DNA of 64,000 nt. It comes from Pseudomonadota bacterium (GTDB taxonomy: Bacteria > Desulfobacterota > Desulfobulbia > Desulfobulbales > JAGXFP01). Of the stretch, positions 1,033 to 13,828 are shown piece after piece. Both the position numbers and the translations under genes were made by a program. Numbering within the stretch: position 1 is the first letter of the stretch; every line of letters starts with the position of its first letter. Below the pieces are notes generated by a model that was not told the origin of the DNA, did no database searches, and saw only the letters and a program-made list of their open reading frames with translations. Location of the stretch: the NCBI GenBank assembly GCA_018814305.1, contig JAHJAA010000045.1, forward strand, positions 200,346-264,345, in the 5' to 3' direction.

Positions 1033-3237
1033 TTACATGACGGCTTCCATCTCCAGAGCCGGATGTCCTTTTTCCTTCAGGAATTTGAGGATCTCTTCCT
1101 CGGTTGTCCCGTTTTCCTCAGTGGCGATCATATCAAAGAGTTCTGGTTTGCCGATGGCGGCACAACGCTCTTTTAATTTTTCAGCGATCTCCTCCTTCAT
1201 CATCTTTGGCAACCAGACCACCCGCTCAAGCCCACCTTCAGCCATAAACAGTTTCGGACTGGTCATGTAATGCTTGCTGACTCCCATAAATCCCGGAGTC
1301 TGGGCGCCACCGCCTGCCATACCAGCCAGGGTGGTAAACTTCATACCGCTGGGAGTCATTCCCGTATGATCGCGATTAACCACCATGATCCCGTTGCACT
1401 GGGGCAGCATGGCGGCAATCGCCTCAAAACAACCACACGCGGTCATGGGACTGGTCATCAGGGAGTAACAGGCCAGATCGGTAACCGCCCCACGAGAGGC
1501 CTGAGAGACGAAATCATTGATTCCCTTAAAGACCCCCAGACTCGGATCAAGACATTCACCCTTTTCAATGGGCTGATTAGGACCGGTTGGATTAATGTTG
1601 AAAGAGGCCTTGCCATCAAGCCAGTTATAGGCTCCGCACATCCCGATCCGCTCGGGGGTAATAATACAGACATGGCTAGGTGCGAAAGACTGGCACAGGG
1701 TGCAACTATAGAAAACCTCCTCGGTCTCATCGGTCATGGTACCAAGTCGTTTGTCACGTTCTTCATAGACACTGCGAGCCAGTTCCTGGACCTCTTCGAC
1801 CTTGGGAAGTTCGGTGTAGATTTTCACCTGAATTTTATCAACAATGGCCCCGAACTCCTGATGAAGCTTTCCATGAAGAACCCGCCCGAAGTGCTCGAAA
1901 GAGAAACCTTTTTCGACGGCCGCTTTACCTATTCTAACCCACATAATATTCCGTTGGCCCATGTGCATGATGCCCTGAATATAATTGATCAGATGGTGAA
2001 ACTGGCGCTCAAGAATCGGCTCGAAATCGGACTGCATCTCACGACCGGCAACCTCAACCAGAATAGCGATGGGAAGGTTTTGACCTTGTTGAATATCCTT
2101 AATATCAGGTCCTTCAACAGTTACCAGTCCATCATGGACCTCATCCATTCCCTTGGAAATAAGAACCTCTACCCCAGCAGTCCGACCACCTCCGCATTCC
2201 ATGAACAAATCATCTTTCCGGATTCGTTCACCTTCAAAGGCCGGGCCGAAGGCCATTGGAATATCGATCTTGGTGACGTTGACTTTGAGGCCCCGAACTT
2301 CAATGGCCTTCTGGACGATCTCATCGTGGGGTATATTACTGACCACATGCTCGTAAGTACAGATCCCGGTGGGCAGGACCTCTGGGATATCAAAATCGGA
2401 GATGGTCGGGAAACCCCAGTTAATGGCACCAGCCGCATTGGCATACCATTCATCGGAAACCGGACCGAAGGCCATGACAAAGGCAAAGGTTCGATCCTTG
2501 TTGTAGATCAGGTTTCCACGGTAATCACCCGGCTTGACCCCACCGAAGGCCAAAGCGACCCGGCAGGCAAAGCCAATTGCGAATACAGCAGAGGTGTAGG
2601 TCGGACCAAAAGGAACCAAACGAGTATTCCATCCAACCTGAACATCATTGGCGACCAATTGCTCGGACATCCGAACCCCGTCGGTATGATCATGCATAAA
2701 GATATAAAGATTCTTCTCCTGGAGCTCCAGGGCAATCTTGCTGGCAATTTCCTTGGTGGGGGGAGCTCCCATAATGGCAGCAAAGCCAGGGGCAGTTCCG
2801 TCGACAAATTCTACCCCGCGTTTTCTAAAAACCACGTCGTCAGCGGCACCCAACCACAAATTTCCACCGGTCGGATCTTCGGTCTTCGTGTAAAAACCCG
2901 GATCATCCAGATAACGAATCGCCTCAAACATCTCTTCGGCAAAAAAAGTTGCCATCCCAGCGTCAAGTGCCGGAGCCAGGTACGGAAGCCACATAGTATC
3001 CGTCACCAGTGGTGGCAAAAGCTTACGGCATTCCTGAAAAATATCCTTCATATCGCCAATGTTATTAACCTTGGCGCCAAGCATCGAATAGATAACCGGG
3101 AGGAAGTATGCGGTATTAGGGAATCCGACCTCTTGTTCAGGACCATATTTCTTAACGGCCTCTTCATACTTCGCCTCGGCCATGTCGATAATCTTATGTG
3201 CCCCCCTGATGGCTGCTGAGCAGATGATCTTAGACAT
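1033..3237 (-). CDS. acsB: CO-methylating acetyl-CoA synthase (CODH/ACS beta subunit)
   Basis: Condenses CO, a methyl group from the corrinoid protein and CoA into acetyl-CoA. The 734-residue length matches bacterial AcsB. All A-cluster ligands are visible: C512-x2-C515-x8-C524-x9-C534 for the [4Fe-4S] cluster, and C601-G-C603 for the distal nickel. The spacing is the same as in the Moorella enzyme, shifted by six residues. The N-terminal domain that forms the CO tunnel in bacterial enzymes is present, unlike in archaeal CdhC. The ATG follows a CAGGAG ribosome site. It is flanked by the metF-acsD fusion upstream and acsC downstream, all on the minus strand. A 649-codon open frame on the opposite strand is an antisense shadow. 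Confidence 0.97.
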   Translation of the reverse strand: MSKIICSAAIRGAHKIIDMAEAKYEEAVKKYGPEQEVGFPNTAYFLPVIYSMLGAKVNNIGDMKDIFQECRKLLPPLVTDTMWLPYLAPALDAGMATFFAEEMFEAIRYLDDPGFYTKTEDPTGGNLWLGAADDVVFRKRGVEFVDGTAPGFAAIMGAPPTKEIASKIALELQEKNLYIFMHDHTDGVRMSEQLVANDVQVGWNTRLVPFGPTYTSAVFAIGFACRVALAFGGVKPGDYRGNLIYNKDRTFAFVMAFGPVSDEWYANAAGAINWGFPTISDFDIPEVLPTGICTYEHVVSNIPHDEIVQKAIEVRGLKVNVTKIDIPMAFGPAFEGERIRKDDLFMECGGGRTAGVEVLISKGMDEVHDGLVTVEGPDIKDIQQGQNLPIAILVEVAGREMQSDFEPILERQFHHLINYIQGIMHMGQRNIMWVRIGKAAVEKGFSFEHFGRVLHGKLHQEFGAIVDKIQVKIYTELPKVEEVQELARSVYEERDKRLGTMTDETEEVFYSCTLCQSFAPSHVCIITPERIGMCGAYNWLDGKASFNINPTGPNQPIEKGECLDPSLGVFKGINDFVSQASRGAVTDLACYSLMTSPMTACGCFEAIAAMLPQCNGIMVVNRDHTGMTPSGMKFTTLAGMAGGGAQTPGFMGVSKHYMTSPKLFMAEGGLERVVWLPKMMKEEIAEKLKERCAAIGKPELFDMIATEENGTTEEEILKFLKEKGHPALEMEAVM

Positions 3238-3316: not shown

Positions 3317-5983
3317 TCAACCGAGAAGTCCGTTTATCAGCGAACGAATCAGGGCTATGGCCTGGGGATGACGCATAATCAGAACCTCACCTCCCGCAAG
3401 CATCATACATGAAGCGGTCATAGCCTCCATCAGCACACCGCGTCGTTCCTGGTCACCGAGTTGGCCGTCTGAGGGCAGTTTCGTTTCCTTACTCTTCCAC
3501 ACCTCTCGTCCCAGATTACAAACGAAGGGGACCTGCAATTTCTCATCCTTCTGGGTCATGGCAGCCAACCTGATCCGCTCCATAACGGAATAGGTATATT
3601 CAATGCCATATCCCAAGGCACCGATGGAAGGATCAATCAAGACACCGTCCAGAGATACTCCGAGATTCTCCAGGAGGATATTCAACTGTTTGGCCAGATT
3701 GACATCAATAGGTGAGGCTGCGACCATCTGATGCTGAAAAGCCATTGCAGTGGCCCCGATGGAACGATAGTTGGCATCGCCAAGTGGTGCCAGACAGACC
3801 TTCTTATCGCCGATCATGGCGGTAATTTCCCTCAGGGTATTGGTATCCTTATCCGCATTTCCGCAACCCCAGAGAATAATCGGGACATCAACACTGCTGA
3901 TCACTTCGGCGGCAATTTTCGCAGCCTCGGCGGAAGAACGGTTCATTCCATTGGGATCAGTACTGACCAAGGAGAGGCAGAGTGCTTCTGCTTTAAAATC
4001 ATTGACACACTTCTTGGCCCATGCCACTGGGTCGCTCATGACATCACTGAAATGACGGGACAACGTTTCCGGCCACTCGTCCGGGGCCACATCGAGGATG
4101 TCCATGGCTATAATTGGGCGATTGGGCATGGCCCCTTCATAGAGTTGGAATGGCAGGGTGGTTTCACCGCCAGTCTTGACCAGGGCCTCGCCGTTGCCAA
4201 GGACAACTTCACGAATTTTGCCGGAGTATTGTGTTTTATAGTGATCGGCCGGTATTTTAGAAGCGCGCTGGGCCAAAGTCGTCTCTTCAACCTTCAGAGC
4301 GCTTGCCGTAACTTTGCCCTCGGCCGCAGGAACGGCCGCCTTCTTTTCAGCGATCGCTGGAGCTGGTGCTTCTGTCTTGGCTACTGACGGTATCGACGCT
4401 TCCGTCTTGGCTACTGCCGAGGCAGGCGCTTCCACCTTGGCAACTTTTTGGGCCTCGGCCTTTTTCGCAGTAGCAGCCGCGACTATCCTTTGGGCCTCAG
4501 CCTTTTTCGCAGCCAAAGCTGCCGCCTTTTCTGCTTCGGCCTTTCGGGCTGTCTCTTCAGCAACCTTAGCCGTATCAACGGCCTTTACCTCAGAAGCGGA
4601 AGGAACCGGGGCGGTATGGGCAACAGGAGCTGCCTGGGCCTTGGGGGCTGGAACAGAACCAAGAATCGGCTGTTTTTTCAGTATTGCCTCAGCTCCGGCA
4701 AATTCAGCAAGGGCATCAAACTGGGCGTCGGTCAGGTTAAAGGCCTTTTTCAAGGCATCAAGCCCGTTACGGACCGACTCCAGTGCCATAAGTCGTTCTT
4801 TTTCGTTCATTTCATCCTCTCCCGCATCTTCGGTTTCAATATTTTCGTATCCAGACACAGTCGGAGCGACGGTGGGTGCCACTATTCCCGAGGATCGGGT
4901 TATGGTAGCCGCCTCAGCCCGGGCCTGGTCAATAATTTTTTCCGCTTCTCGCCGGGCTTCAGCCATCAACTGATCGGCAGCGCCGACCTCGCCTGGTTCA
5001 ACCGTTCTGACAACTATTTCACTTGAGGTTGGGGCTGCTTCGACAGTATGCGTGTCGTCATCAAATACGGGCCGGGTGCCAAGTTTGGCCCGACTAACGA
5101 TTTCGGGCACGGCGCTTTCCCATTCAATGGCCATGATATGAACCCCGGAAACGCCCTTAATCTCCCGAACCTGCTGAATGATATCAACACAGATATTAAT
5201 TCCTTCTTCTTCCTTATCCTTCGCCCCTTTCAGGCGATCGATCACCGAATCAGGAACATCCATCCCCGGGACAAAATTCTTCATATACCGGGCCATGCCG
5301 AGGGAACGAGGCGGGGTAACCCCAGCCAGAACATAAACCTTCTCGGCAAGCCCCAAGTTCCTGACCTCTTCCATAAACTCGGCAAATTTCTCGACGTTAT
5401 AGATAATCTGGGTCTGGACAAAATCGGCCCCATTGGCCACCTTTTTACCAAGTCTGGCCGCCCTGCTCTTGACGTCCGGCCCGGCAAAGGGATTAGCGGC
5501 AGCCCCCAAAAACATACGCGGCTCATGGGCCTTAATGGTTTCACCACATTGGAATTGACGATTATCTCTCATGTCCCGCACCATTCCAAGAAGCTGAATG
5601 GAGTCCATATCAAAGACCCCCTTAGCCCCGGGATGATTGCCGAATTTCTGATGGTCGCCAGTAAGGCAAAGCAAATTTTTCAGCCCCAGGGCGGACGCCC
5701 CAAGGAGATCACTCTGCATCCCAATCCGATTCCGATCACGGCAGGTCATCTGGATCACCGGTTCAACCCCTTCGGAGAGGGTGATCAGACCCGCTGCAAT
5801 ACTTGACATCCTGACAATGGCCGTCTGGCAGTCGGTAATATTGACGGCGTCAACATTTCCCTTCAGCAGGCGGGATTTCTGTCTGACGACCTCTGGATCA
5901 CTGCTCTTGGGGGGGCCAAGTTCACCGGTTACGGCAAACCCGCCGGAGGTCAAAATCCGTTCTAAACGGCTACCCGATTTCAT
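3317..5983 (-). CDS. Fusion of methylenetetrahydrofolate reductase (MetF) and corrinoid/iron-sulfur protein small subunit (AcsD)
   Basis: One uninterrupted 888-codon frame joins two Wood-Ljungdahl proteins. Residues about 1-300 are a MetF-type TIM barrel with the catalytic Glu in VTGELGPP (E21) and the LTGDHQ motif. Residues about 320-375 are Glu/Ala-rich and probably coiled. Residues 392-440 form a short helical segment. Residues about 445-570 are an Ala/Lys/Pro linker with repeated KTEA units. Residues about 580-888 are the AcsD/CdhD TIM barrel (GKIREVVLG, ILWGCGN, DPSIGALGYGIEYTYS). An upstream GTG at 5999-6001 is possible, but the ATG at 5981-5983 follows AAGGAA at a better distance. An internal ATG at 4808-4810 has its own GGGAGAGG site, so a separate 497-residue AcsD form may also be made. 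Domain identities are secure. Whether the fusion is native or due to a lost stop codon or sequencing error is not known. Confidence 0.88.
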   Translation of the reverse strand: MKSGSRLERILTSGGFAVTGELGPPKSSDPEVVRQKSRLLKGNVDAVNITDCQTAIVRMSSIAAGLITLSEGVEPVIQMTCRDRNRIGMQSDLLGASALGLKNLLCLTGDHQKFGNHPGAKGVFDMDSIQLLGMVRDMRDNRQFQCGETIKAHEPRMFLGAAANPFAGPDVKSRAARLGKKVANGADFVQTQIIYNVEKFAEFMEEVRNLGLAEKVYVLAGVTPPRSLGMARYMKNFVPGMDVPDSVIDRLKGAKDKEEEGINICVDIIQQVREIKGVSGVHIMAIEWESAVPEIVSRAKLGTRPVFDDDTHTVEAAPTSSEIVVRTVEPGEVGAADQLMAEARREAEKIIDQARAEAATITRSSGIVAPTVAPTVSGYENIETEDAGEDEMNEKERLMALESVRNGLDALKKAFNLTDAQFDALAEFAGAEAILKKQPILGSVPAPKAQAAPVAHTAPVPSASEVKAVDTAKVAEETARKAEAEKAAALAAKKAEAQRIVAAATAKKAEAQKVAKVEAPASAVAKTEASIPSVAKTEAPAPAIAEKKAAVPAAEGKVTASALKVEETTLAQRASKIPADHYKTQYSGKIREVVLGNGEALVKTGGETTLPFQLYEGAMPNRPIIAMDILDVAPDEWPETLSRHFSDVMSDPVAWAKKCVNDFKAEALCLSLVSTDPNGMNRSSAEAAKIAAEVISSVDVPIILWGCGNADKDTNTLREITAMIGDKKVCLAPLGDANYRSIGATAMAFQHQMVAASPIDVNLAKQLNILLENLGVSLDGVLIDPSIGALGYGIEYTYSVMERIRLAAMTQKDEKLQVPFVCNLGREVWKSKETKLPSDGQLGDQERRGVLMEAMTASCMMLAGGEVLIMRHPQAIALIRSLINGLLG
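4808..4822 (-). promoter_or_regulatory. Internal ribosome binding site and ATG inside the metF-acsD fusion
   Basis: Read on the minus strand, GGGAGAGGATGAA precedes ATG AAC GAA AAA. This is a Shine-Dalgarno-like GGAGAGG six to seven bases upstream of an in-frame Met (codon 392 of the fusion). It sits exactly at the junction between the MetF part and the linker plus AcsD part. Initiation here would give a 497-residue protein. This suggests that metF and acsD were once, or still are, separately initiated cistrons. Confidence 0.5.
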
Positions 5984-6167
5984 CTGGTCTCTTTCCTTCA
6001 CGTTTATATAATAAAAATTTTTCTAGGCGTTGTCGTAGACCAAGCCTGGTCAACATCACCCTGGATGATCGAAATTCGGCTGAAAGTCCGTCCCTTTCCA
6101 CGTTGCCTTTTCACCATCTGGGAAAAAGCGATAAAAGGCAAGGAACTCTCACGCCGGATTTGAACTT

Positions 6168-8165
6168 TTATCGGGGACCTGCGACACCATGACAGCCGAC
6201 GTCACTAAGGGCACCACTTCCCAAGTCCCGGCGCATCTCCATATCAAAAAGAACCCGCTCAGCCTTTTTATTGATCCCCAAGGCATCACGCTTCTGCTCA
6301 ATCTTTTCAATCATTATCCGGGCAATTTCTTTTGGATCCTCAGCAATATTCCAATGGGCACCATAGGTTTCCATCATTCCATCGGTCATATATTGGTTAA
6401 AGGCCTTTGAACCGGTGATGGGCAGACTCTGGAATACAACCTGGGCACCACTGGCAACAAAATATTGACCAATAGCCACCGCCTTCTCACTCATATACAG
6501 GGGCGCTGTACCGATGGCGGGCAAATCGGAAATATCATCACCCAGACCGCCCTCACGGACCATCTCGGTGGCAGCAATCAGGATCCGGCTGTTATCCACA
6601 CAAGAACCCATATGAAGAACCGGCGGCATCCCCACCGTCTCACAGACCTCGCGCAGACTCTCGCCGCAGAACTCGGCCGCCTCAGGCCGCATCAACCCAG
6701 CCTTGCCAAGGGAAGTGGCTGCACAACCGGTGGCCAAGACCAGGATATTATTCTTGATCAATTCACGGGCGATGATCTCATGGGATTCATCGGTGTATTT
6801 ATAATTATCACAACCAACAATGGCGCCAACCCCACGAATCCGACCATTGATAATATTATCATTCAAGGGACGATAACTGGCTCGGAATCGGCCGCCCAGC
6901 ATATAGTTAATGGTTTCATGACTGAAGCCGACCACCACATCGGACTTGGTCTTTTCAGGTATAAAGAATTTACCCCGTTTCTTGTAGTTCCCGATGGCCT
7001 TGGTCAAAATCGCCTTGGCACTGTTCATGGCGTCATGTTCTTCAAATTGGATATGAACCGCATCAGGCATCTTGGCCCGATAGTTAGTTGTAATGATATC
7101 GGTATGAAAATTCTTGGCCACCTGAGCCACTGACTGCATGACACACTGGACATCCACCACCATGGCTTCGATGGCGCCAGTGGCCAGGGCCATTTCCTGC
7201 TGGATGAACCCTGCCGCCACCGGGATACCTCTCCGCATGAGTATCTCATTTCCGGTGCAACAGACCCCGGCCAGATTGATCCCCTTGGCGCCAGCCTTCT
7301 TGGCAAGCTCCAGAATATCCGGTTCCTGAGCGGCGATACAAAGGGATTCTGCCAGCAGTGGTTCATGGCCATGGACAGTAACGTTGACCATATCAGACTT
7401 CAACACCCCCAAATCCACGATAGCCCGCCTCGGGACCGGGGTACCAAACATGATATCGGTCAACTCCGTGGACAGCATGGAAGACCCCCAACCGTCAGAA
7501 AGGGCACAGCGGGAACCCTGCAGCATCAGGTTATGGTACTCCTGATCCACCCCCATGTGGGTACGGTGCATCATCTCGGTAACCTCACGGTCAATGCCAC
7601 GGGGTTCAATACCCAATTTTTTCCACAGGGCCTGCCGTTTGGCCGGTGCCCGTTTAAGCATGGTAATGGGTTCGTCGTCCTGACTCCCGAACTCAGCCAA
7701 AGCCTTCTCACCAAGTTCCAAGGCAATTTCATTTTTATCACGATCTTCAATCTCAATACCAAATAAGGTCGCCAGCTTATGGAGTTTCTCCACATCCTGG
7801 ATCTTATGCGCGGTTTGTCCTTTAGCGGTAGCAATAAAACCCTTAACCATTTCCCGGGCATGATCAGTATGGGAAGCAGATCCTGCGGCAATAATCCGGG
7901 CCAGGTTCCGGGCGGCGACGGTATCAGCGGTGGCTCCGCAGATCCCGATCATTTCCTCAACACCGTCTATAATCTGGCATGGTCCCATATTACAGTTCCG
8001 GCAACAGGTTCCACTGGACCCGAACAGACAGGCCGACATCCCTCGTGAGCGAACCCGGTCATATGCGGTATTGACGTTCTTGGCTATATCCTGGGAAAGC
8101 ACTTCTAAGGTGGATTTACAGGTAATATCCGCGCAGCTTTCACATCCGTTTCTTATAACAGCCAT
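6168..8165 (-). CDS. cooS: Ni-dependent carbon monoxide dehydrogenase catalytic subunit (CooS/AcsA type)
   Basis: Interconverts CO2 and CO, here most likely to feed AcsB. It is 665 residues from the ATG at 8163-8165, which follows TGAGGT; a start 17 codons upstream is less likely. Metal-site motifs are complete. The D-cluster pair is C46-x7-C54, the B-cluster is C55-x2-C58-x4-C63 and C76, and there is an extra N-terminal C8-x2-C11-x4-C16. The C-cluster motifs are VHGHEPLL, GVCCTGNE, DVQCVMQS, VGCDNYK, TGCAATSLGKAGL and HMGSCVDNSRI. It sits between folD and metF-acsD, and the synthase genes downstream make it the CODH of the bifunctional complex rather than a stand-alone respiratory CooS. The residues after DLGSGAL look like a short C-terminal extension. 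Confidence 0.96.
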   Translation of the reverse strand: MAVIRNGCESCADITCKSTLEVLSQDIAKNVNTAYDRVRSRGMSACLFGSSGTCCRNCNMGPCQIIDGVEEMIGICGATADTVAARNLARIIAAGSASHTDHAREMVKGFIATAKGQTAHKIQDVEKLHKLATLFGIEIEDRDKNEIALELGEKALAEFGSQDDEPITMLKRAPAKRQALWKKLGIEPRGIDREVTEMMHRTHMGVDQEYHNLMLQGSRCALSDGWGSSMLSTELTDIMFGTPVPRRAIVDLGVLKSDMVNVTVHGHEPLLAESLCIAAQEPDILELAKKAGAKGINLAGVCCTGNEILMRRGIPVAAGFIQQEMALATGAIEAMVVDVQCVMQSVAQVAKNFHTDIITTNYRAKMPDAVHIQFEEHDAMNSAKAILTKAIGNYKKRGKFFIPEKTKSDVVVGFSHETINYMLGGRFRASYRPLNDNIINGRIRGVGAIVGCDNYKYTDESHEIIARELIKNNILVLATGCAATSLGKAGLMRPEAAEFCGESLREVCETVGMPPVLHMGSCVDNSRILIAATEMVREGGLGDDISDLPAIGTAPLYMSEKAVAIGQYFVASGAQVVFQSLPITGSKAFNQYMTDGMMETYGAHWNIAEDPKEIARIMIEKIEQKRDALGINKKAERVLFDMEMRRDLGSGALSDVGCHGVAGPR

Positions 8166-8245
8166 GGTGTACCTCAATTCATTTGTTCTTGTTCTCGTCC
8201 TACCGGAGAGAAACACTTTAACAACCCTGCCGAACCACCGTCAGG

Positions 8246-8276: not shown

Positions 8277-9164
8277 TTAGATCAACCCGGCTGCCTGCTT
8301 GGCGGCTTGAACTGTATTTTTCATCAGCATAGTAATGGTCATTGGCCCTACCCCACCGGGAACCGGCGTAATAAATGAGGCCTTTTCTTTTACCTCGTTG
8401 AAGTCAACATCACCGGCCAGGATTGCCTTACCGGACTCACTCATCCCAATACGATTCACCCCGACATCGATAATAACCACACCATCTTTGACCTGATTAG
8501 CCTTGACCAAATTAGGAACACCAACGGCCGCGATAATAATATCAGCCCTCCGGGTATGGAAGTCGGTGTCTTTGGTTCGAGTGTGACAAAGAGTCACGGT
8601 GGCGTTGCCCGATGGGCGTTTCTGCAACATCAGGTTGGCGATGGGCTTACCGACGATGTTACTGCGCCCAAGGACCACAACTTCCTTCCCGCTGGTCTCG
8701 ACCCCGCTTCTCTCGAGCATCTCAAGAATGCCGTGAGGGGTACAGGGCAGAAAGCATTGTTCGCCAAGCACCATCTTGCCGACATTAACGGGATGGAAAC
8801 CATCCACATCCTTGTTCGGATCGATGGCGTAGAGCACCTTGGCCTCATTGATGTGCTTAGGCAATGGTAACTGTACCAATATTCCGTTAATCTTCTCATC
8901 ATTATTGTATTGATCGATCAGGGCAAGGAGTTTTTCCTCAGAGGTATCTGCCGGAAGATCAACTTGCTCGGAATAAATCCCTAAAGCCTTGGCTGTCTTG
9001 CTTTTAGCGGTCACGTAGGAAACAGAGGCCGGGTTTTCACCGACCAGAATTGTCACCAAGCCGGGAACAACGTTATGCTTATCCTTGAGCTCGGTGACGA
9101 CCACGGTCAGTTCCTCGCGAATCGCCTTAGCAATCTCTACCCCACTAATAATTTTTGCACTCAT
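8277..9164 (-). CDS. folD: Bifunctional methylenetetrahydrofolate dehydrogenase / methenyltetrahydrofolate cyclohydrolase
   Basis: Carries out the two middle steps of the methyl branch, converting formyl-THF to methenyl-THF and methylene-THF. The 295 residues match the family length. Key residues are Y50 and K54 (SYVTAK), Q98 (LVQLPLP) and D121 (KDVDGF), followed by the PCTP loop, the NADP-binding GRSNIVGKP and the signature PVPGGVGPMT. The ATG follows AAGGAG seven bases upstream. It is the first gene of the Wood-Ljungdahl transcript on the minus strand, with 111 bp to the cooS start. The leader to its right holds a 16-bp palindrome that may be an operator. Confidence 0.97.
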   Translation of the reverse strand: MSAKIISGVEIAKAIREELTVVVTELKDKHNVVPGLVTILVGENPASVSYVTAKSKTAKALGIYSEQVDLPADTSEEKLLALIDQYNNDEKINGILVQLPLPKHINEAKVLYAIDPNKDVDGFHPVNVGKMVLGEQCFLPCTPHGILEMLERSGVETSGKEVVVLGRSNIVGKPIANLMLQKRPSGNATVTLCHTRTKDTDFHTRRADIIIAAVGVPNLVKANQVKDGVVIIDVGVNRIGMSESGKAILAGDVDFNEVKEKASFITPVPGGVGPMTITMLMKNTVQAAKQAAGLI

Positions 9165-9621: not shown

Positions 9622-11862
9622 TCAGTTTCCCCCCCGGTTCTGGGCCAATTTAACGATCAACTGATTGGCTTGGCTCAAGCGCTGGACAACAGTGGTAAAG
9701 AGATGACGACTCACATCGGGGTGATTCTCGATCAGTTCCATGATCTTATCACCTGGAAAACGTTTGACCACAGAACGTCCTTTTGAAATGATACTGGCGG
9801 ACCGGTTCTCCCCGGAAATAGCTGACATTTCACCAAAATACTCTCCCGGCTGAACGATCTCGGCAATTTTCTTGCCTTCCCTAACAACTGACAGGGCACC
9901 AGTAACCAATTTAAAAAAATCCTTGTCGGTATTTCCCTGACGAATAATATAGTCACCATCATCATAGTTTTCCACATCTGGATTAACCAGATAGGCGGGC
10001 AGACTCTCCTCAGTGACCACCGTCTTCCGAAGAACCTCCTCAATACTGGTGGCCCCCTGTTTGATCTTCTCAATCCCGGCCTGACGCAAGGGGGTCATTC
10101 CTTCATTAATCGCAACCTTACGCAACTGATCTTCAGGAACCTGGGCATTGATGGCCTTGGCCACCTCATCAGTCACCTCCATCAACTCAAACAGCCCGAC
10201 CCGACCCTTATATCCCCCCCCATTACAGTATGAGCATCCCTTGGGACCAAAAATTTTCAATCCCTCGAAATCAGACTCCTGAAAACCCATGGACAGCAAT
10301 TCAATCCGGTCATAATCCTTGACCTCGACTTTACACTTGGGACACAACCTCCGGGCCAACCGCTGGGAAAGAATCATGGATACCGAAGAGGCCAGCATAT
10401 AGGCCGGGATTCCGATATCAACCAATCGACCGATGGTTGACGGGCAGTCATTGGTATGGAGGGTACTGAACACCAGATGACCGGTCATGGCTGCCTTAAT
10501 GGCAATCTCGGCGGTCTCCATATCCCGGATCTCACCAACCATGATGATATCGGGATCCTGACGGAGAAAGGCCTTTAAAGCGGCGGCAAAGGTCATGCCG
10601 ACTTCGTTGATCACATTAACCTGATTGATCCCCTTGAAGTTAAACTCAACCGGGTCCTCGGCGGTGAGGATCTTGGTGTCTTCCTTGTTCAGGGAGTTCA
10701 AGGCCGAATAGAGGGTAACGGTCTTGCCGCTACCGGTTGGACCGGTGACCAACAAAAGCCCTTGGGGACGATTGATGCAACGCTTGAGCATGGTAAAAGT
10801 CGATTCCTCAAAACCAAGCTTGGTGAGGTCGACATTCAATGAGGATTTATCCAGAATCCGGAGAACAATACTTTCGCCGAAGAGCGTCGGCAGGCTTGAT
10901 ACCCGGAAATCAACGGCCATATTGCGACCGATCCGAATCTTGATCCTGCCATCCTGGGGCACCCTGCGCTCGGTGATATCAAGATTGGCCATAATCTTGA
11001 TTCGTGAGTTCAAGGCGTTCTTAATTGAAAGTGGCAGATTCATGGTCTTGAACAGGGAACCGTCAAGACGATACCGAACCTGCAGGGATTTCTCATAGGG
11101 TTCAATATGGATATCGCTGACCCCGTCTTTGACAGCCTTGATCAGAATGCCGTTGACCAGCTTGATGATCGGGGCATCAGAGGCCGAGTACTGGTCAACC
11201 CCGCCATCATCGACATCCACCCCCTCAATTTCATAGCCCTCGGCCGCTTCAGAGGCCAACGCACCGAAATCGTCGATGGTGACAACCTCATCATCGCCCC
11301 TCTCCTCACGCTGATTTTCCCCAAAGAAAGACTGATATTCCTCATCATCAATCTTGTAATAGGTACGAAAGGCCTCGATAATATCCCGTTCCTTGGATAC
11401 ACAAACGGAAAGGGGACGCCGGAGTTCATTCTGAAGACTCTCCACGGCGGCGGTATCGGTGGGCTCCGCCATGGTAACCTGGAGGGTTTTACCCAACTCC
11501 CGCAAGGGAAAAGCCATGAACTTACGGGCCAGTTCATAGGGTAAAGCCTCGATGGTTTCAGGCTTAGGAGGTTCTCTGGGGATAAATACCGCATGAAAAT
11601 TAAGGGTTCGGCTTAAAACATTCAGAATCGTATCTTCTTCGATATACCCCATCTGCAGGAGGATGGAACTTAGGCGACGTTTAGTTTTTTTATGAATTTC
11701 AACGGCTTCCTCCAGCTGGCGCCCATTAATTTGCCCCTCTTTTCGGAGCAACTCGCCGATCTTCAGCTTCCCTGCCCCGGACTGATCCTTGAGGGTTGCT
11801 TTCAAACTTGATTTTTCAAGGGACGACATGAACTGGGAGGGGACGTTTTTTGGGCTAGCCAT
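9622..11862 (-). CDS. PilB/GspE-family assembly ATPase with a C-terminal cyclic-nucleotide-binding domain
   Basis: A hexameric ATPase of the type that drives type IV pilus or type II secretion assembly, 746 residues long. Residues about 32-165 form an MshEN/GspE-N domain (KIGELLRKEG), a fold that binds c-di-GMP in some homologues. Residues 240-615 are the ATPase, with Walker A GPTGSGKT at 374-381, the Asp box AEDPVEF, Walker B DIIMVGEIRD, a His box and the zinc site CPKC...CSYC (507-546). Residues about 628-740 are a cNMP-binding beta-roll (DGDYIIRQG, GEYFGEMSAISGENRSASI). That last domain is unusual on a PilB/GspE protein and suggests a second nucleotide input. No pilin, PilC or secretin gene is in the window, so the machine it serves is unknown. 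Confidence 0.9.
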   Translation of the reverse strand: MASPKNVPSQFMSSLEKSSLKATLKDQSGAGKLKIGELLRKEGQINGRQLEEAVEIHKKTKRRLSSILLQMGYIEEDTILNVLSRTLNFHAVFIPREPPKPETIEALPYELARKFMAFPLRELGKTLQVTMAEPTDTAAVESLQNELRRPLSVCVSKERDIIEAFRTYYKIDDEEYQSFFGENQREERGDDEVVTIDDFGALASEAAEGYEIEGVDVDDGGVDQYSASDAPIIKLVNGILIKAVKDGVSDIHIEPYEKSLQVRYRLDGSLFKTMNLPLSIKNALNSRIKIMANLDITERRVPQDGRIKIRIGRNMAVDFRVSSLPTLFGESIVLRILDKSSLNVDLTKLGFEESTFTMLKRCINRPQGLLLVTGPTGSGKTVTLYSALNSLNKEDTKILTAEDPVEFNFKGINQVNVINEVGMTFAAALKAFLRQDPDIIMVGEIRDMETAEIAIKAAMTGHLVFSTLHTNDCPSTIGRLVDIGIPAYMLASSVSMILSQRLARRLCPKCKVEVKDYDRIELLSMGFQESDFEGLKIFGPKGCSYCNGGGYKGRVGLFELMEVTDEVAKAINAQVPEDQLRKVAINEGMTPLRQAGIEKIKQGATSIEEVLRKTVVTEESLPAYLVNPDVENYDDGDYIIRQGNTDKDFFKLVTGALSVVREGKKIAEIVQPGEYFGEMSAISGENRSASIISKGRSVVKRFPGDKIMELIENHPDVSRHLFTTVVQRLSQANQLIVKLAQNRGGN

Positions 11863-12064: not shown

Positions 12065-13828
12065 TTAGAACAGACCTGAAACCTTACCTGATTCCGGGTC
12101 GACATCAATACGGCGGAAAGCCGGATTCGAGCTGGTACCAGGCATCAGGCTGATCGTCCCAGCACATGGGCAGAGGAACTTGGCACCAGAATAAATCAAA
12201 ATATCCCGAACAGGCAATCGCCATCCTTTGGGCACCCCCTTTTTGGTCGGATCATGACTCAGGCTCAGGTGGCTCTTGACCATCATGGTGGCATAGTCAG
12301 CGTACTGAGGATCATTTTCCAGCATCTCCGCCTTGGCATTGGCCTCAGGTGACCAGTCAACCCCATCACCGCCATATACTTCCTTGGTGATCATTTCGAC
12401 CCGGTCACGGAGTTTCATTTCCAGAGGATAGAGGAATTTGAAGTCATTCTTTTCATTACATGCTTCAATTACTGTATCTGCAAATTCCAAGGCACCATCG
12501 CCGCCCAACTCCCAATGTTTGGACTCGGCACAGCGGGCACCAGCTGCCTCCGCGATCCGGCGAACAACCTTGCACTCTTCATCAGTGTCGCTGTAAAAAC
12601 GGTTAATGCAGACCACTGGGTTGATACCGGCCTTCCGGATAACGTTAATAAGATGGACCATGTTCTCGCAGCCCTTCTCGACCAAACCAACATTCTCCTT
12701 GGTATAGGCATCATCCAATGGCTTACCGGCAACTACCTTCGGGCCGCCGCCGTGCATCTTCAGGGCGCGGATGGTCGCGGTCAGGACCGAGACATGCGGT
12801 TTCAGACCGGAGTAACGGCACTTGACGTTCCAGAACTTCTCAAAACCGATATCAGCAGCAAAACCGGATTCGGTGATATTGTAGTCAAAGAGTTTCAGGG
12901 CAACCCGGTCAGCAATGATTGAAGACTGGCCGACCGCGATGTTGGCAAACGGTCCGGCATGGACCAGACAGGGGTTGTACTCTGCAGTGCACATCAGGGT
13001 CGGGTTGATAGTATTCCGCATGAATGCGGCCATGGCGTTGCCGACTTCCAGGTCACGACAGGTTACCGGTTTGCCACTCTTGTCAAAGGCCACGGTGATG
13101 TTGTTGATCCGTTCCTTCAAATCTGCCAGGTCAGTGGCAATGGCAAGGATCGCCATCAGCTCTGATCCCACGGCGATCCCGAATTTGGACTGCATGGTAA
13201 AGCCGTCGGTGCGACCGCCGAGACCAATAACGATATTCCGCAGAGCCTGCGCACAGAAATCGATGATCCAGCCAAACTCCACCCGAGTGGGATCGATGTC
13301 AAGCCGTCTCATCCCGGTTAATCTGGCCAACTGCTCATCGTTATAATTACGCTCATGCTGCATGCGAGCAGTCATGGCCACCATGCCCAGGTTGTGGGCG
13401 TTCATAATGTCGTTGATATCACCGGTGAGGCCCAGAGAAAACTCGGTCATCGGGATAAGCAAGGAGTTACCGCCACCTGCTGCAGTACCCTTGACGTTCA
13501 TGGTCGGACCGCCAGAAGGTTGACGCAAGGCACCGCCTACGTTCATCCCGCGTTTGCCCAGACCTTCCATCAGGCCGCAGGAAGTGGTACTTTTCCCTTC
13601 ACCAAGGGGGGTTGGAGTAATCGCGGTTACCTCGATGTATTTGCCATCCGGCTTGTCTTTGAGCCGGTTCATAATCTTCAGAAAGTCGAGTTTGGCCAGC
13701 CTACCCATGGGGAGGATTTCGTCTTTCTCAAGCCCTAATTTGTCTCGCCATTCTTCGGGTGTGGGCATGTTTTTTTCAGCAGCCTCAGATATCTGCCAGT
13801 CTGCCATTTCTACCGCGTTATAAGCCAT
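12065..13828 (-). CDS. fhs: Formate-tetrahydrofolate ligase (formyl-THF synthetase)
   Basis: ATP-dependent activation of formate onto tetrahydrofolate, the entry step of the methyl branch. It is 587 residues from the ATG at 13826-13828, which follows GAGGAGGG; an in-frame start 25 codons upstream lacks such a site. The P-loop [12 protein letters not shown] is at about 71-82. The [11 protein letters not shown] segment and the family signature [13 protein letters not shown] are present. It is not in the main acs cluster: the cNMP-PilB gene lies between them, but on the same strand and only 2.9 kb from folD. thyX is directly upstream and a strong terminator lies downstream. Confidence 0.97.

Follow-up and report, generated by a model that had tools for sequence, protein, structure and literature searches.

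The type IV methylenetetrahydrofolate reductase (MTHFR), HdrCBA-MvhD-MetVF, has been described in Moorella thermoacetica and Sporomusa ovata (PMC8760232, PMC9430772). The small subunit of the corrinoid protein CFeSP, AcsD, is normally a free protein of ~310 amino acids. A fusion of metF and acsD has been on record since the 2016 genome paper of Desulfurivibrio alkaliphilus AHT2, where an 'mthfr/acsD fusion' (DaAHT2_0827) appears, undiscussed, among the abbreviations; in its text that paper names the gene a methylene-THF reductase and mentions neither its distribution nor a hairpin, tether or internal start (PMC5016858). In the literature that we searched we found no discussion of the fusion, of its spread or of its internal start. 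An internal in-frame start that yields a separate subunit is known from cas8b, which gives rise to Cas11b in this way (PMC11899642).

We analysed a metF-acsD fusion in a window of 64,000 nucleotides (the whole stretch of DNA studied) from a genome of the order Desulfobulbales. Its AcsD half matches the CFeSP small subunits 2h9a_B and 9fzy_E over the full length of the barrel, with 38–42% identity, but is preceded by an extra linker region of ~270 amino acids and by MetF at the N-terminus. As with Cas11b and cas8b, the C-terminal part would be made as a separate subunit; here, in central carbon metabolism, this is predicted from sequence constraint. While the fusion was already on record, the conserved internal start in its linker appears to be new.

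The fusion gene and its neighbourhood

The metF-acsD gene is a single uninterrupted open frame that runs from 5983 to 3317 on the minus strand and comprises the following features.

3317–5983, minus strand: metF-acsD fusion gene (ATG at 5983, stop at 3317–3319; 888 amino acids, 94.8 kDa)
5994–5998, minus strand: AAGGA, ribosome-binding site of the full-length product, 5′ of the ATG at 5983
5087–5965, minus strand: MTHFR (MetF) domain, residues 7–299 (PF02219, E 1.5e-39; fold match 8eac, T. thermophilus MTHFR)
4892–4987, minus strand: charged, coiled-coil-like helix, residues 333–364 (AlphaFold helix)
4676–4804, minus strand: conserved helical hairpin, residues 394–436 (conservation; AlphaFold helices 394–414 and 419–436)
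4280–4663, minus strand: Ala/Lys/Glu/Val/Pro tether, residues 441–568, ~130 amino acids (composition; variable in sequence and length)
4368–4445, minus strand: 30-bp tandem repeat, 2.6 copies, coding for the KTEA units of the tether (Tandem Repeats Finder)
3320–4240, minus strand: AcsD/CdhD domain, CFeSP small subunit, residues about 582–888 (PF03599; 2h9a_B match)

A preliminary description had read this frame of 888 codons as a MetF–AcsD fusion, and Pfam, PDB relatives, AlphaFold and Foldseek, and conservation all bear this out. The PF02219 match spans model positions 2–286 of 287, that is, the full-length catalytic barrel, and sequence search found the T. thermophilus MTHFR as a PDB relative of the MetF half (E about 1e-9). 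For the AcsD half, PF03599 (CdhD) matches residues 592–833 (E 2.8e-41) and the PDB relative is the CFeSP small subunit 2h9a_B (E 1.3e-81); NCBIfam agrees with Pfam on both domains. An AlphaFold model, computed with 58 fusion sequences as input, contains two confident barrels (residues 1–300 and about 570–888); its pTM is only 0.49, and the model therefore does not fix the position of the barrels relative to each other. Foldseek recovers both of them, one as CFeSP small subunits (2h9a_B and 9fzy_E; 42% identity and TMt 0.93 with the former) and the other as bacterial MTHFRs (TMt about 0.8). In an alignment of 58 fusions the MetF residues E21, D110, Q190 and Q192 are invariant; judged by motif, they may correspond to the catalytic residues Glu28, Asp120 and Gln183 of E. 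coli. A search of the same genome found no second AcsD; two further MTHFR-like genes are both distant from the fusion. At L212:1557–3089 of this genome, a second MTHFR-like protein is joined to a MetV-like domain, DUF5981 (510 amino acids).

Between the barrels, the charged coiled segment and the Ala/Lys/Pro linker with KTEA repeats reported earlier are indeed present, as the helix, the tether and its 30-bp repeat; the conserved hairpin and the conserved internal translation start in the same linker had both been missed. In related lineages a much longer coiled coil takes the place of the charged helix. The hairpin (~45 amino acids) is present in one copy in its own genome and was seen only in MetF–AcsD fusions (17 of 297 genomes of the phylum, always in frames of at least 875 amino acids). 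It has no significant Pfam match. Kinship with TAL-effector repeats, for which summed PDB profile scores were high, was rejected; since no single stretch passed the threshold, we read these scores as repeat summation of a two-helix pattern. The tether consists of 34% Ala, 13% Lys, 11% Val, 11% Glu and 8% Pro, and has a low pLDDT in the AlphaFold model except for a helix at residues 472–514. The E2 chains of 2-oxoacid dehydrogenases have Ala/Pro/Lys-rich flexible tethers beside a small helical module. The proposed likeness of the linker to such swinging arms holds for composition but not for a lipoyl domain: the Pfam scan of the linker gave no lipoyl-type carrier domain and nothing significant, with a weak match to an ATP-synt_B coil (E 0.022). 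Unlike the E2 chains, the fusion thus has no lipoyl domain or covalent carrier, and the mobile carrier would be CFeSP itself.

The neighbours of the fusion in the window are genes of the same Wood–Ljungdahl cluster.

1033–3237, minus strand: acsB, acetyl-CoA synthase, downstream gene (NF040764; GGAG ahead of the ATG)
6168–8165, minus strand: acsA/cooS, CO dehydrogenase, upstream gene (TIGR01702; GAGGT ahead of the ATG at 8165)
8277–9164, minus strand: folD, methylene-THF dehydrogenase/cyclohydrolase
12065–13828, minus strand: fhs, formate-THF ligase (GAGGAGG ahead of the ATG at 13828)

For acsA, the ATG at 8165 was preferred over a GTG at 8216. The order of transcription is fhs, a pilB/pulE-like gene, folD, acsA, metF-acsD, acsB, acsC, formate dehydrogenase, HdrA and a partial MvhD, with acsA and acsB as neighbours within the window and acsC, which encodes the partner of AcsD, as the next gene downstream of acsB. 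The cluster of D. alkaliphilus AHT2 (fhs, pulE, folD, acsA, mthfr/acsD, acsB, acsC, formate dehydrogenase) has the same set of genes as that of the window and of genome G008. The gene for the PilB/PulE-like ATPase, upstream of folD, lies at 9622–11862 of the window and at L217:16036–18345 in G008. The formate dehydrogenase gene (L132:9710–13822) has an in-frame TGA (HCARL*HAPTVA) and the HdrA gene, upstream of L132:9410, an in-frame stop (DCSL*ILAPKL); both products are likely to be selenoproteins.

In related lineages (L215 and L216) the order is hdrA, mvhD, hdrC, a FlpD-like gene, metV, metF-acsD, acsB, acsC, acsE and fdh, and L214, from family f64, has the same cluster with metF and acsD separate; the hdr and mvh names in these three loci were assigned by likeness to scanned proteins. 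As in the type IV MTHFR, metV, hdr and mvhD are thus clustered with metF in all three, whereas in the genome studied here the genes are divided between two loci, with homologues of HdrC, MvhD and MetV together on contig C70, outside the fusion operon. A further difference from the type IV enzyme is that MetF here bears the CFeSP small subunit. To judge by the gene order of the relatives, the MetF half is probably part of a type IV MTHFR of the HdrABC-MvhD-MetVF kind. AcsE is encoded on yet another contig (C26), outside the fusion operon, and in related lineages within the same operon. AcsD/AcsC can receive the methyl group only once AcsE has acted on the CH3-THF that MetF produces. With this step in between, there is no direct chemical transfer from MetF to AcsD, and, with AcsE encoded elsewhere, the substrate channelling suggested in the preliminary description stays conjectural.

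Distribution and history of the fusion

The fusion was found in one frame, over nearly the whole query, in at least 36 of 58 Desulfobulbales genomes (our own included; one is cut by a contig end), and further fusions in the order are split by contig ends. In the scan of genome contigs, where the best 80 of 415 matches were considered, named loci came from Desulfurivibrio, Desulfocapsa and 'Ca. Desulfobulbus rimicarensis'. Outside the Desulfobulbales, families f42, f78, f105 and f75 have the fusion, and it extends throughout the class of G317; in that class the linker contains the hairpin, a coiled coil of greater length and one or two TPR units. As had been stated earlier, the two genes are usually separate: most other families of the phylum have a MetF of about 305–340 amino acids and an AcsD of about 311–345, or an AcsD of 497–556 amino acids with a tail. 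Within the Desulfobulbales, two genomes, G010 and G049, keep metF and acsD apart, and these genes group with those of other lineages; in family f12, no AcsD match was obtained from the genomes sampled. Separate AcsD proteins of other lineages with a long C-terminal Ala/Pro/Lys/Glu tail were seen at L128:8654–10207 (G049) and in L173 (G071). L166 (G082) and L167 (G156) contain a different fusion, in which a single frame of about 1120 amino acids encodes AcsD, an Ala/Pro/Lys linker and then AcsA, the CO dehydrogenase.

The trees of the MetF and AcsD domains, rooted at the midpoint, are broadly concordant, and both need two label changes. The AcsD tree groups the fused proteins in a single clade (support 100/99), whose sole separate members are two split cases of f42 (L161 and L164) nested within it. 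In the outgroup f64, metF and acsD are two genes side by side, and AcsD there lacks the hairpin and the tether. The pattern fits what was probably one ancient fusion and one later split at the position of the internal start. The fusion is genuine and, within a large group of sulfur bacteria, of ancient origin.

A constrained, probable start codon within the linker

The predicted internal start consists of two elements that precede the hairpin.

4818–4822, minus strand: internal Shine–Dalgarno element GGAGA, present in every complete gene from the order (68/68)
4808–4810, minus strand: internal in-frame ATG (Met392) behind the conserved Shine–Dalgarno-like element; predicted short product of 497 amino acids, 52.6 kDa

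In all 68 complete fusion genes of the Desulfobulbales, which share ancestry and are therefore not 68 independent trials, residue 392 is Met (ATG) and bases −12 to −8 are GGAGA, giving GGAGA-N7-ATG (L121 ends before the site). The constraint acts at the level of nucleotides. Gly388 is encoded by GGA in 68/68 genes, against 10.1 expected from the codon usage of the same genes (z = 20.2), and is the strongest of 515 codon columns, the next best Gly column having 40% GGA; as a control, GGA makes up 15.5% of the other Gly-before-Glu codons in these genes. Ala387 is encoded exclusively by GCA or GCG and never by GCC or GCT. In L030, Asp replaces Glu at residue 389, and GGAGA is nonetheless intact. 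Among 15 conserved Met columns, Met392 alone is preceded by a Shine–Dalgarno-like element in every gene (37/68 for the runner-up). The codons that follow it are A-rich and biased, as after a true start, and RNA structure at the site is weak (−4.3 kcal/mol against a gene mean of −10.9±2.4), ranking fourth among 282 windows for low structure. A looser scan gave 85 distinct contexts, drawn from at least 12 families, and every one of them had GGAGA (85/85).

The two split f42 cases, L161 (G154) and L164 (G389), have an acsD that begins, with MQNEKELL, at the point of Met392 and has its own ribosome-binding site. Several f42 fusions and f75 have comparable ATGs, with GGAGG, GGAGGT or AAGGAG, directly before the corresponding helix. 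A comparable internal ATG is absent in f78, f105 and part of f42, and the fusion therefore has no absolute need of the short product. Among close relatives we found no degraded internal-start site.

Programmed frameshifting at GGAGA was considered and rejected: the A-rich stretch downstream does not make up a conserved slippery heptamer, position +10 from the ATG being G in 15/68. In many of the longer fusions of the G317 class (for example, L183 and L192–L198), AGGAGG-ATG lies inside the coiled coil and might be a further internal start; GAG-GAG encodes the pair of Glu residues there in 13/14, but Glu-Glu-Ala yields such a motif readily. In L042, a Desulfocapsa MAG, the MetF part contains an in-frame TAA or TAG/TGA stop and the internal start is intact.

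One gene and its probable products

Taken together, GGAGA in 68/68 genes, GGA at Gly388, the unstructured site and the start of the split relatives make two proteins the most likely outcome, and we consider it probable that one gene gives a tethered MetF–AcsD and a free AcsD, with the link to type IV MTHFR included. Synthesis of the short AcsD product from Met392 is strongly predicted. It is unlikely that the fusion protein alone is made, with the tether acting as a swinging arm through which methyl-THF is channelled from MetF to the corrinoid protein. The long flexible Ala/Lys/Pro tether between two folded barrels and the retention of the fusion over a long evolutionary time agree with such an arm. 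Against it, some AcsD should be untethered given the conserved internal start; AcsE, on which methyl transfer depends, is unfused and here lies on another contig; and the split relatives have AcsD without attached MetF. GGAGA could also be a translation-pause signal for co-translational folding, with no start and only the fusion made: it sits between two folded domains, and Shine–Dalgarno-like codons have been proposed to slow ribosomes. A pause, however, needs neither an ATG at a fixed 7-nt spacing nor A-rich, low-structure codons downstream, and it would not fall just where acsD begins in the split relatives; we regard this reading as quite doubtful.

The adjacent separate metF and acsD of the outgroup f64, in the same gene order, would agree with the internal site being a mere relic, the former start of a separate acsD that happened to survive the fusion. 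Under neutral drift, however, one would not expect a single Gly codon to stay GGA in 68/68 genes (about 15% elsewhere), and the outgroup AcsD, being without hairpin or tether, must start elsewhere than at the Met392 site, which makes a relic very improbable. The chance that an assembly or frameshift artefact joins two genes is close to nil. Several MAG contigs do break in or near the repetitive tether, yet the same frame is found in dozens of genomes, including the single-contig genomes G008, G155, G181, G254 and G316, and closed genomes refute such a joint; moreover, the fusion was independently noted in D. alkaliphilus (PMC5016858). We looked for a stop near 4800–4850 in relatives and found them fused in one frame, the apparent exceptions L055, L058 and L089 being accounted for by runs of N; 4810 is the conserved internal start codon.

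With two proteins made from one gene, as we favour, the start at 5983 would give the 94.8-kDa flavin MTHFR (MetF) joined to AcsD by the helix, the private hairpin and the tether, and the start at 4810 behind GGAGA would give the 52.6-kDa AcsD, which would keep the hairpin and tether and lack MetF. Both products would pair with AcsC, so that there would be one population of CFeSP held at the MTHFR complex and another free to serve AcsB. With the MetF half in a type IV MTHFR, as the gene order of relatives suggests, the fusion would physically link the Hdr-coupled reductase of the methyl branch to CODH/ACS, and it may keep methyl-THF and CFeSP at a higher local concentration near AcsE and AcsB. 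The earlier proposal that the fusion brings methyl-THF production near methyl transfer is thus retained in part: the tether is long, and it is plausible that it keeps a share of CFeSP near the MTHFR complex. Tethering of all CFeSP is not retained, because a share of the AcsD should, to judge by the conserved internal start, be produced free of MetF.

A covalent MTHFR–CFeSP link occurs in cultivated bacteria, and its hidden internal start would mean that genome annotation has missed a product. Fused genes may also conceal acsD from annotators. The study of 'Ca. Desulfobulbus rimicarensis' listed metF and acsABC but not acsD (PMC7117923), although its genome does carry the fusion (L057). More broadly, we would give slightly less than an even chance to such dual-product genes occurring across the phylum, with a type IV MTHFR covalently tethered to CFeSP and the ratio of tethered to free forms set by the internal ribosome-binding site. 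If true, such genes would join the energy-coupled methyl branch to acetyl-CoA synthesis by a covalent bridge.
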